Assembly (NCBI GenBank): GCA_029265405.1
Contig: JAJUJI010000003.1
Coordinates: 62,001 to 126,000 of the forward strand
DNA: 64,000 bases
Direction of reading: 5' to 3'
From: Clostridiales bacterium
GTDB lineage: Bacteria; Bacillota; Clostridia; Oscillospirales; Oscillospiraceae
This document shows, piece by piece, positions 5,884 through 49,600 of this stretch. A model generated the notes under the pieces. It worked only from the letters and a program-made list of their open reading frames with translations. It searched no databases and was not told the origin of the DNA. The first letter of the stretch is position 1, and every line of letters begins with the position of its first letter. Both the position numbers and the translations under genes were made by a program.

Positions 5884-5919
5884 AATAATAAGCGTAAATA
5901 ATAAGCGTAAATAATAAGC
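5884..5919. repeat. 13-bp direct repeat, nearly three copies
   Basis: The unit AATAATAAGCGTA occurs twice exactly (5884-5896, 5897-5909) and a third time for its first ten bases. It lies between the divergent DUF951 gene and the gene at 5949. It could be an operator array or a promoter spacer that has expanded by slippage. Confidence 0.8.
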
Positions 5920-12348: not shown

Positions 12349-12372
12349 GGCGCTTAATTTTTATTAAGCGCC
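12349..12372. repeat. Perfect palindrome in the divergent cheW/csoR intergenic region
   Basis: GGCGCTTAAT-TTTT-ATTAAGCGCC: ten-base arms and a four-base centre. No gene ends here; cheW begins about 95 bases to the left and csoR about 100 to the right. It could be an operator or an insulating terminator. Confidence 0.75.
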
Positions 12373-12414: not shown

Positions 12415-12450
12415 TATAATACACTCATCACTACACGCGCGCTCGCGCGC
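12415..12450 (+). promoter_or_regulatory. csoR -10 element and GC-rich operator candidate
   Basis: A consensus TATAAT lies at 12415-12420; no good -35 is seen at the right distance. Between it and the ribosome site is the self-complementary GCGCGC-t-CGCGCGC stretch (about 12436-12450), placed where a CsoR-type repressor could act on its own gene. Inferred. Confidence 0.35.
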
Positions 12451-12468
12451 TTGAAAGGATTTGCGCAT

Positions 12469-12918
12469 ATGGGCGACAAAGGCAGGACTGCGGCCGGCGG
12501 CGCGGGGTATCCCGGCCCGCAGGGCTCCGCCCCGCACGGGCACGAGCACGAACATGAACACGGGCATGAACACGGGCATGAACACGAGCACGAAAACGAA
12601 CACGATCACGAAAACGAACACGAACACGGGCTTGGGGCGCCGCATTCCCACGTCCATACCCATCAGCAGACCAGGGCCGTGCTTAATAGGCTTTCGAGGA
12701 TAAGCGGTCATTTGGGCGCCGTAAGGCGCATGGTGGAGGACGGGCGGGACTGTCCCGAGGTGCTGATACAGCTTGCCGCCGTCCGCTCCGCAATAGACGG
12801 GGTTTGCAAGCTCATATTGAAGGACCATCTCGACAACTGCATAATGGACGCGGTCGAAACGGGCGACTCCTCCGCTATAGCCGAGCTCAACCGCGCCATC
12901 GAGATACTGATGAAATAA
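12469..12918 (+). CDS. csoR: CsoR-family metal-sensing repressor with a long His-rich N-terminal tail
   Basis: 149 residues. Residues 68-149 form the DUF156/CsoR helical repressor domain: RAVLNRLSRISGHLGAV, then DCPEVLIQLAAVRSAIDGV and KDHLDNCI. The Cys of DCPE and the His and Cys of DHLDNC (spaced by four) match the C-H-C set of copper-sensing CsoR. Residues 23-65 hold 18 histidines, mostly alternating with Glu or Gly (H-E-H-G), a tail absent from ordinary CsoR and like the metal-storage tails of HypB or metal chaperones. The ATG at 12469 has a GAAAGGA site. No copper or nickel transporter is next to it. Metal identity (copper or nickel/cobalt) is undecided. Confidence 0.85.
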   Translation: MGDKGRTAAGGAGYPGPQGSAPHGHEHEHEHGHEHGHEHEHENEHDHENEHEHGLGAPHSHVHTHQQTRAVLNRLSRISGHLGAVRRMVEDGRDCPEVLIQLAAVRSAIDGVCKLILKDHLDNCIMDAVETGDSSAIAELNRAIEILMK

Positions 12919-46621: not shown

Positions 46622-49600
46622 TTACTTATTCATATACCGGGTCAGCATCGCGGCCAGCTCCGCCCTTGTTAAGGCGCTTGCGGGCGCGAGAGCGCCGTCT
46701 CGGCCGCCTATCAGTTCCGTCCCGCAGGCCCACCTCATGGCGGCTGCGGCGTATGCGCTGACCGCCGAGGCGTCCTTGTAGGAGCCGATGTCGGTGTTCT
46801 CGCCGGCCGAAACATCCTTGCCCGCCGTCTTGGAATAGCGGTATAGGAAGGCGGCAAACTGCTCGCGCGTCACCGCGCCGGCGGGGTCAAACCTGCCGTC
46901 CGCCACGCCCACGGTTATGCCGTTTGCGTAGGCCCAGTTTACGGCCTCCTTGTACCAATCCTGCGCGAGGTCGCCGAAGCCGGCGTCGGGCGCGCCCTTG
47001 GGGCTGCCCGCCATGCGCCAGAGCACTGTCACGACCATGGCGCGCGAGGCCGTTCCGCCGGGATTGAACTTGCCCTCGGCGACGCCCGTCATGAGCCTCT
47101 CGTCGTACACATACTGCGCGTAGCACTCAAACCAGTCGCCGCTGCGGATATCGTCAAAGCTCTGGGATACTGGAACCGCCTTGTTCTTGAGCACAACAAA
47201 CCTCGAGAGCGAGTCTACGCTGAACACCGCGTTGCCGTCGGCGTCCACCGTGGCTTCTAACACCGTGTAGCCGCCGTCGTCCTTCATGTGCAGCACCGAA
47301 ACCTTCTGCCCGGCGTAGCTCTTGCCCACCGGCAGCCTTACCGTCAGCGTCCCGAAGCCGGAGCTCAGCTTTCCGCCGCCCGCGTAAACGGATATCTCGG
47401 CGGAGGCAAGCGCCGTGTTGCCCGAGAGGACTTTGAAGCCCTTGCCGGCATCGCGCGACTCTGCAACCTTCACCGTTATATCTCCGCCTGAGGAGGCGTC
47501 GGCCAGGCTGCCGAGGCCCTCGGAGGTGAAGCTGACGCTGCCCGCACCGGTAGAGACTGTAAGAGCGGCTTTGCCGGAGGAAACGGCCTTCGCGTCGGAC
47601 GCCGCTATCGTCGCGCCGTCGGACTTGGAGCTTATAACCACCCTGCCGGTTTTGGCCTTGAGCGCGCCGCTAATGCCGCTTGAGGAAACCTTGCCCGTTG
47701 ATGTTCCGATGGTATCGCTGTAGCTTGTCGACGAGCCGCCGGAGGAGCCGCCGGAGGAGCCGCCGGAGGATGTCTTGGTATAGGTCACGCTTCTTTCGGC
47801 GTCCGCCGCTCCCATGGTCACGGTAACCGTCTTTTCGGAGGCCTCGTAGCCGCCGACGCTGGGCGAGGCGACGACGCAGGTGGAGCCGTAGGTCACCGTT
47901 ATGGCTATTTTGCCGCCGCTTACCGTGGCCGTCTGATCCGCGCCGCCGTCTATGGAGTATGAAACCGCCGTTCCGTCGGCTACGGCCGAGCCGAAGCTAA
48001 TCGTAAGGACATAGCTGTTTGCCTCGAAGGTCCCCGCGGCTGTCAGGTCGGCCTGGGGCATGGTTTCGGGCGCATAGCCGCAGTCCCAGCTCCAGCCGCT
48101 GAAGGTGTGGCCCGTTTTTTCCGGCAGGTAGGGCTGGATCGCCGCGCCGGCATCGTATCTGACGAAGCTGTCGGCCTTGCCGTCTATGTAGTAGGTTATC
48201 ATGTAGGCGCCGGAGGAGTAAACGACGCTCTCCTCCGCGTCGCCGCCGATTATGCCGGCAACGACGGGCTTGCTCGCGGTAAAGCCCTCGATTTCCGGCG
48301 AAACCACGCTGTAGGACTCTCCGTAGGCGTAAGAGGCTGCCACCGGCGTGGCGGCCTGAGAGCCGTCGGCATATTTGTATGCTATCGTAAGCGTATAGGT
48401 GTTGGGAGAGTATGTCACGGTTACGGCCCTGTCGGAGGCGCCCATGGTGCCCTCGACTAGCGCCTTGTCGGGCGTGTGGCCGGCAAGGCTTGGCGAAGCC
48501 ACGGAGTAGGACTCGCCATAGGTCCTGTTAAGCGTTGCCGTGGCCGAGGCCGCAGTCCCGTTTTCAAACACATAGTAGACGCTGAGCTTATAGACGTTTG
48601 CCGCATATGTCACGCTTACGGTCCTGCCCTGGGCGTCCATGACGCCGTATACCGAGCTTGCGCTCGCCGTGTAGCCTTCAACCGAAGGCATGGAAACGCT
48701 GTAGGCGGCTCCGTACGGAACGCTGACCGTTATTTTTCCGCCGGATACGGTAGTAGTCTCCGCCCTGCCGTCTGCGGTATATGCAACCGTCCTGCCCTCT
48801 GCGGCATAGCCGCAGTCTATTGTCAGGTCATATTCTGGCGTCGTCTGCACAGAGTAGAGCTTTATCGTGCCGGCGTCGAGAAGCTGCATTCCGTAGGGCT
48901 GCCAGCCGCTGTAGGAGTAGCGCCCGCCGTATGGCGTGCCGGGGTTGTAAGCGCCCATATCGTCAAAGCCGAAATCTGAATACTGCGTATAGTAGTCTTC
49001 ATTGACCAGGTTGCCGTCGCCGTCGATTATTATGTAATCGTAGCGGTACCGGCCGCTTGTGAACTTGCCGCTGACCGTGATATCACAGGCGGGCATCTCG
49101 ACCGGCAGGCCCTCCCAGCCGGACCAGAAGTAGCCGGAGGTGTCGGAATCAAGGCGGTAGGCCTGCGGCGCCCTTATCGCTTCACCGTAAGCGTAGGTTT
49201 GCTTATAGAGCGTCGCGCCCTCGGCCTCGACGGTTTCAGTGGGTATGTCAAAGGTGTCCAGAGAGTAGAGCGAGGGGTCGAGGGCTGAGCCGCCGCCGTC
49301 GGTTATCGTGTAGGTCACCGTGTATTCCTCGGGCCGGTAGGTCAGACTCAGCCTCTTGTCGGACGCGGCGTTATAGGTCAGGTTCACGAGCACCAGGCCG
49401 GGCGAGCCGCTTCCCGTGTTCGTCATGGCGAAAACGCCGTCGGCCCATGAGGCGCTGTAGACGCCCGGCGCGTACTCCACGCCGTCGAGCAGCAGCGCGT
49501 AGCCGCTTATTGCCGGCAGCGCGAGAGTCGTTGAAGCTCCGTAGGCTACGGTTTCGGTCTGGAAGTCGGTCTGCGCGTTGGGCATTGTAAATTCTATTGT

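Follow-up and report, generated by a model that had tools for sequence, protein, structure and literature searches.

The regulator gene P0001 of a Clostridiales bacterium encodes a CsoR/RcnR-family protein with a long histidine-rich N-terminal tail, which the members of a large clostridial clade have in common and which is no peculiarity of one genome. Judged by its sequence, the regulator is closest, among sensors of known effector, to InrS, the nickel sensor of Synechocystis PCC 6803. Putative operator sites shared by regulator and transporter genes suggest that the tailed regulator controls a distant nickel/cobalt uptake transporter, and it probably acts as an InrS-type Ni/Co sensor in trans on a cbiMQO importer, with the tail as a disordered metal-binding arm. 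The InrS-like kind of CsoR/RcnR sensor is already known; what is added here is the long, clade-conserved histidine arm and the predicted importer target. In the literature covered, from which most subscription journals are absent, no description of the tailed clade or of its operator was found. If the proposal is true, many Clostridia would gain an assigned regulator of nickel/cobalt uptake whose operator is defined, and an orphan regulator would be tied to its target gene family. The gene lies in a stretch of 64,000 nucleotides (contig JAJUJI010000003.1, positions 62,001 to 126,000), hereafter the window, and its features are collected in Table 1.

Table 1. Features of the tailed regulator gene, its product and its upstream DNA; positions are those of the window
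Feature	Position	Strand	Remarks
CsoR/RcnR-family regulator gene P0001	12469..12918	+	149 aa, stop included; PF02583 91.8 bits
Shine-Dalgarno-like AAAGGA	12454..12459	+	9 nt before ATG; read from sequence
Possible -10 box TATAAT, without good -35 box	12415..12420	+	putative, from sequence
Perfect 10-bp inverted repeat GGCGCTTAAT/ATTAAGCGCC	12349..12372	.	divergent intergenic region
His-rich tail at N-terminus (residues 23-65, 43 residues with 18 His)	12535..12663	+	conserved end H59, H61, H63, H65
Degenerate CAYGAR tandem array encoding most of tail	12535..12628	+	periods 6 and 24
PF02583 helical core, residues 69-145	12673..12903	+	E 3.7e-26, 91.8 bits vs gathering cut-off 22.8
His63, fingerprint position W	12655..12657	+	faces InrS His21 in phmmer alignment; His in 90/92 rows
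Cys95, position X	12751..12753	+	92/92 rows
His120, position Y	12826..12828	+	92/92 rows
Cys124, position Z	12838..12840	+	91/92 rows

The initial annotation had described a CsoR-family repressor with 18 histidines in 43 residues ahead of a Cys-His-Cys sensor site. The coordinates of the reading frame, its ATG, stop and length, and the histidine count were all confirmed. It had also been considered there that the true start might lie later, leaving the tail untranslated. No ATG, GTG or TTG occurs between codon 1 and codon 71 of the frame, and the first alternative start, a GTG at codon 71, falls inside helix 1 of the core; a tail-less product from a later start was thus ruled out, and translation of the core entails that of the tail. 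Among the 513 stop-to-stop frames of at least 60 aa in the window, the next highest count is nine histidines per 43-residue stretch. The hexamer array that encodes the tail was detected as 12541-12628 and as 12535-12626, with the two periods given in Table 1, and the histidine codons are mixed (12 CAC and 6 CAT). Two perfect short tandem arrays also occur elsewhere in the window, at 5884-5919 (13 bp x 2.8) and 47733-47770 (12 bp x 3.2). In the DNA upstream of the regulator gene, the promoter scan listed no + strand promoter at the candidate TATAAT. The perfect GGCGCTTAAT/ATTAAGCGCC repeat is present as a single copy within the window, was found in 0 of 100 shuffles, and is distinct from the G-tract operator of the relatives described below.

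Relatives were collected with one genome per species. The best 80 of 418 relative-encoding stretches, together with 60 related genomes, gave an alignment of 92 rows at 48% core identity or more, the own row included, and nearly all of these rows have a histidine-rich N-terminal tail. In two loci, L047 and L094, the apparent absence of the tail results from a late start choice, the upstream DNA of both encoding a histidine-rich tail. Since the first query had included the tail, the search was repeated with the core only (residues 69-149) on 391 genomes of the class, of which 47 match at 1e-14, and 29 loci were read besides the own one. A tail of the same kind is present in all 20 of the loci read whose core identity is 50% or more; it spans 9 to 87 residues and holds 3 to 34 histidines, so that the presence of the tail is conserved and its length is not. 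Among nine loci at 37-47% core identity, a histidine tail is found in two (6 and 19 histidines), and the remainder have 0 to 3 histidines. The homologue search proposed with the initial annotation thus had a positive outcome, and the contrast drawn there with ordinary CsoR was borne out in part: the tail is real and translated, but it is not peculiar to this protein.

It could be argued that the tail arose neutrally, by slippage of the hexamer repeat, and has no metal role, the regulator functioning without it. The DNA is indeed a tandem array, and the wide range of lengths among relatives agrees with such an origin. Slippage is nevertheless an unlikely account of a tail that recurs in every one of the close relatives in many different sequence forms, with mixed histidine codons and with an end that is nearly fixed: H59 is present in 80/92 rows, H61 in 88/92, H63 in 90/92 and H65 in 79/92, and the last HxH ahead of helix 1 is nearly invariant in the relatives.

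The assignment to the CsoR family with a Cys-His-Cys site, made in the initial annotation, is well supported by the PF02583 score and by Cys95, His120 and Cys124. The CsoR label holds for the family, but among relatives whose effector is known the nearest is InrS, which senses nickel, and not a copper CsoR. The W-X-Y-Z fingerprint reads His-Cys-His-Cys (H63, C95, H120, C124), which is the InrS pattern, and the two rows without His63 are gaps caused by a wrongly chosen start. Position A, a Tyr in copper CsoRs, is held by Asp94 in 92/92 rows. At position B, Glu139 aligns with InrS Glu98, and Glu or Asp is found in 77/92 rows. The predicted structure, a monomer model of low confidence (mean pLDDT 69, pTM 0.44, core blocks 80-93) that was used for the core only, has helices at residues 65-90, 95-131 and 134-148, with residues 1-64 disordered. 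Both the model and its fold matches have the three-helix, all-alpha protomer of the CsoR/RcnR family. InrS (PDB 5fmn) was ranked first by Foldseek (E 1.7e-5), the Geobacillus CsoR (4m1p) was third, and the M. tuberculosis CsoR (2hh7) was among the top matches. In phmmer, InrS matched with an E value of 2e-23, and the top sequence match was 6ahx, titled Copper-Sensing Operon Regulator Protein. The NCBIfam RcnR model scored 42.4 bits, below its cut-off of 138.

InrS has the same fold as the tailed regulator and is 47-49% identical to it across the aligned core; the two also share the fingerprint and a position A without Tyr. The N-terminal extension of InrS also bears histidines, six according to an excerpt of PMC4235346, but is short, with His21 at position W, as compared with the 64 residues and 18 histidines of the tailed regulator. 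The H21L variant of InrS retained nickel binding by co-elution (excerpt of PMC4235346), and the role of His63 is thus not certain. The known target of InrS is the efflux gene nrsD, that predicted here is cbiMQO; binding of InrS upstream of a nickel-import operon, with raised expression, is also described in an excerpt of PMC7055735. The M. tuberculosis and Geobacillus CsoRs likewise combine the three-helix PF02583 core with a Cys-His-Cys triad, and the CsoR operator is also a G-tract pseudopalindrome (excerpt of PMC3902906); the tailed regulator differs from them in its position A without Tyr, the His at W, the long tail and the lack of a link to a copper ATPase. RcnR and DmeR, sensors of nickel and cobalt, belong to the same Pfam family and also use an N-terminal His as metal ligand. 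They have His at position Z (excerpt of PMC7055735) in place of Cys124, and the ligand in RcnR is His3 as against His63.

These likenesses bear on the reading that the protein is an ordinary copper CsoR with an incidental tail, binding Cu(I) at its Cys-His-Cys triad and controlling copper efflux. CsoR uses this triad to bind Cu(I), which is bound tightly by InrS too (excerpts of PMC4235346 and PMC7055735), a copper sensor stands third among the fold matches, and the first sequence match bears the title of one. The reading is improbable in view of the Asp at position A, which leaves the protein without the Tyr-Glu second shell, and of the loci of the tailed clade, among whose recurrent neighbours neither a P-type ATPase nor a copper chaperone gene was found. 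The role would, moreover, already be filled in the source genome by a second PF02583 protein, G000:C4:96122 (L002 1480-1752), which is tail-less, is encoded immediately ahead of a P-type ATPase and is preceded by a perfect palindrome of its own, TACCCGTACGGGTA (near L002 1446-1461). Its position and its palindrome make this protein the natural, and likely, copper CsoR of the genome.

In the window, the tailed regulator gene is flanked by a divergent gene that is presumably CheW-like and, likewise on the opposite strand, by one that presumably encodes a lipoprotein. Searches of the genome for CbiM, E1-E2 ATPase and cation-efflux families gave zero copies within the window. The earlier remark that the gene stands away from any transporter gene is therefore correct for these three families in this genome, but not as a general statement, as cbiMQO genes adjoin the regulator in some relatives and an operator is shared with distant cbiM genes. 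No metal transporter is a common neighbour in the loci of relatives. The cbiMQO genes are beside the regulator in 5/91 loci, divergent in L053, L090 and L105 and adjacent in L093 and L112, and the class-level search found cbiM beside the regulator in G112, G301 and G161. A Mrp/NUBPL-like ATPase gene lies 3' of the regulator in 11/91 loci. A CbiA/AAA-family ATPase precedes the regulator in L014 and another is nearby in L079, both of which we take to be CooC-like, and RACo and DUF3786 genes stand ahead of the regulator in L004 and L007. The source genome encodes CO dehydrogenase, which provides a nickel context. Conserved neighbourhood was set aside as a route to function, as it reflects mostly clade synteny and most loci are without a transporter.

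Upstream of many relatives' regulator genes, a G-tract palindrome of approximately ATCCCC-N5-GGGGAT was found by reading the DNA. With up to two mismatches and within 170 bp upstream of the regulator, it occurs at 17/92 loci against 0.28 expected from shuffles, a count which is a description and not a test, since the motif was defined on the same 92 loci. A position matrix (A1) was made from 18 regulator-upstream sites, a score of 17 or more being taken as a site, and was tested on the 300 bp upstream of cbiM genes outside its construction. The 60 relatives and the source genome have 13 CbiM loci. A site is present at 4/4 cbiM genes of the MHMADALL (PDGLE) type (own L114, G003, G004 and G035), with scores of 17.1 to 22.2, and at 0/8 of the other testable cbiM genes, none of which exceeds 6.5 (Fisher p 0.002); the ninth of these, L173, has only 45 bp of upstream DNA. 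Four of the cbiM genes of other type, own L113 included, have a cobalamin riboswitch instead of the operator.

Across the class, where 30 cbiM loci were read, a site of at least 17.1 was found at 5/8 loci with the regulator and at 0/22 without it (best score 10.8; Fisher p 4e-4), the source genome being among the positives of both sets (the 4 and the 5). Against the proposed link, three of the eight regulator-positive loci are siteless (for one of them, G161, the locus read is a copy other than that beside the regulator), and because of these three the rank test over all class-level scores is not significant (p 0.06). The regulator and this cbiM type occur together in 10 of the 391 genomes, cbiM alone in 30, the regulator alone in 11 and neither in 340 (p 6e-6), a value which, like the other p-values given here, is too small because the genomes are related.

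In the source genome, candidate sites upstream of cbiM are located at L114 2178-2210 and 2361-2393. Several results in this genome count against cbiM as the target. Within 400 bp of the regulator gene in the window, no G-tract site is present. The site at the own cbiM promoter, ACATCCCCCCACCCCGCTTGTTA-N17-TATAAT, has a degraded right half and scores 13.2. The better palindrome (17.1) is located some 230 bp ahead of cbiM; on its divergent side it abuts a -35-like hexamer and faces the gene of a 147-aa protein (L114:2447-2887, + strand) without a Pfam or NCBIfam match. An operator model (R1) run across the source genome gave one match, elsewhere, with E 0.6, and missed the cbiM sites, with 150 of its 436 candidates scored; the case for cbiM in this genome is built on the position matrix, whose best score on 94,405 bases of other source-genome DNA is 10.3. 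A search of the same genome with a 17-bp consensus pattern (2 mismatches) was too unspecific, with at least 68 places per strand against at least 32 for the reversed control. CO dehydrogenase was rejected as a target: in one relative (G028) the operator model matches upstream of cooS with E 0.27, but at a greater distance from the -35 box, as judged by eye, and cooS in the source genome has no operator site. In five loci from genomes without the tailed regulator (L191-L194 and L196), the same cbiM type has another, short palindrome, CCCTTCATGGGT / GACCCATGAAGGGG, about 43-54 bp upstream, which may belong to a different regulator.

The neighbourhoods and the operator data both bear on the reading that the protein senses zinc or cobalt for another regulon and that the cbiM link is secondary. 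Transporters of the CbiM type move both cobalt and nickel, most loci have no adjoining metal transporter, with cbiM-operon genes beside the regulator in so few, and the Mrp/NUBPL-like ATPase, the CooC-like proteins and RACo could indicate other partners. This alternative is nonetheless doubtful, as the other cbiM of the source genome (L113) is operator-free behind its cobalamin riboswitch. The two cbiM genes would thus be under separate control, as expected if the L114 system serves nickel.

As the probable regulator of cbiMQO, the protein would bind at a well-defined place in the promoter. At all 12 cbiM promoters with a site (L053, L090, L105, L182, L184, L203, L206, L174, L171, L166, L093 and own L114), a TTGnnn -35 box begins 6-7 bp past the site centre and a -10 box follows 16-18 bp further, an arrangement that random positions in the same DNA fit in 40/12,000 cases (0.3% per position), the best-of search for -35 and -10 boxes favouring the layout rule somewhat. 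Three of these loci, L053, L090 and L105, share the site with the regulator gene, and their sites were in the matrix. In L053 and L090 a single palindrome lies between the divergent regulator and cbiM genes, and in L090 the regulator-side -10 is poor. Where the spacer is 17 bp, the site centre is at about -42. Class II activators have their site near -42. The -35 boxes are poor at the regulator promoters, with a mean of 3.2 of 6 matches (n=13).

In the CsoR/RcnR family the three-helix core forms a tetrameric DNA-binding oligomer, and the core of the tailed regulator would do the same. Each subunit would bind one divalent metal through His63, Cys95, His120 and Cys124, with the metal and the geometry suggested by InrS; the metal would most likely be nickel, possibly cobalt. 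Nickel is favoured on the InrS pattern, the separate riboswitch-controlled cbiM and the CO dehydrogenase of the source genome, although sequence cannot separate the two metals. Acting in trans, the oligomer is predicted to bind the G-tract palindromes lying against the -35 box of the PDGLE-type cbiMQO operon, and metal binding would release it from the DNA and alter importer expression.

RcnR, InrS and DmeR leave the DNA upon nickel binding (excerpt of PMC7055735), so that simple repression of an importer would amount to positive feedback. The same regulator with the same target could still be a classical repressor, whose apo form blocks the -35 box and whose metal form de-represses. Release on metal binding in the nickel-responsive family members agrees with this, and an oligomer bound against the -35 box could exclude RNA polymerase. 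Such repression is possible but rather unlikely, given that the imported metal would induce its own importer and that the -35 boxes are as poor as at activator-dependent promoters. The site at about -42 beside weak -35 boxes suits an apo-activator, but a repressor could sit there too. As a tentative proposal for the whole clade, the apo form would activate cbiMQO at nickel shortage, nickel arriving via the histidine arm would remove the regulator and switch import off, and the length of the arm (3 to 34 histidines) would provide the set-point of each species.

The 64-residue disordered tail may provide the regulator with several weak metal-binding sites and act as a local store that would supply the His63 ligand and shift the sensing threshold, by analogy with the nickel-holding tails of some HypB proteins. 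Buffering of metal, its transfer to the sensor site or a broader metal range, as put forward in the initial annotation, could likewise be roles of the tail. Histidine-rich HypB, a nickel protein with such an arm at its N-terminus, resembles the tailed regulator in the tail only, being a nucleotidase chaperone where the tailed regulator is a transcription factor. The arms of the B. japonicum and R. leguminosarum proteins have 24 histidines with 9 Ni and 17 histidines with 4 Ni per monomer, respectively, and storage or buffering was proposed for them (excerpt of PMC7055735). The natural variants, with from 3 to 34 histidines on one conserved core, would offer a means of finding out whether a metal sensor's threshold is set by a disordered metal-binding arm. 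Two further loci deserve mention with regard to histidine-rich or extended N-termini. In L136, a 118-aa histidine-rich protein (MHHDETMHTHEHTHADG..., 836-1189, + strand), for which no Pfam or NCBIfam match was found, is encoded divergently from the tailed regulator with the operator between them. In L041, the start choice gives an acetyltransferase-like N-terminal region of 220 residues in frame before the tailed regulator, which may represent a fusion or a wrong start.
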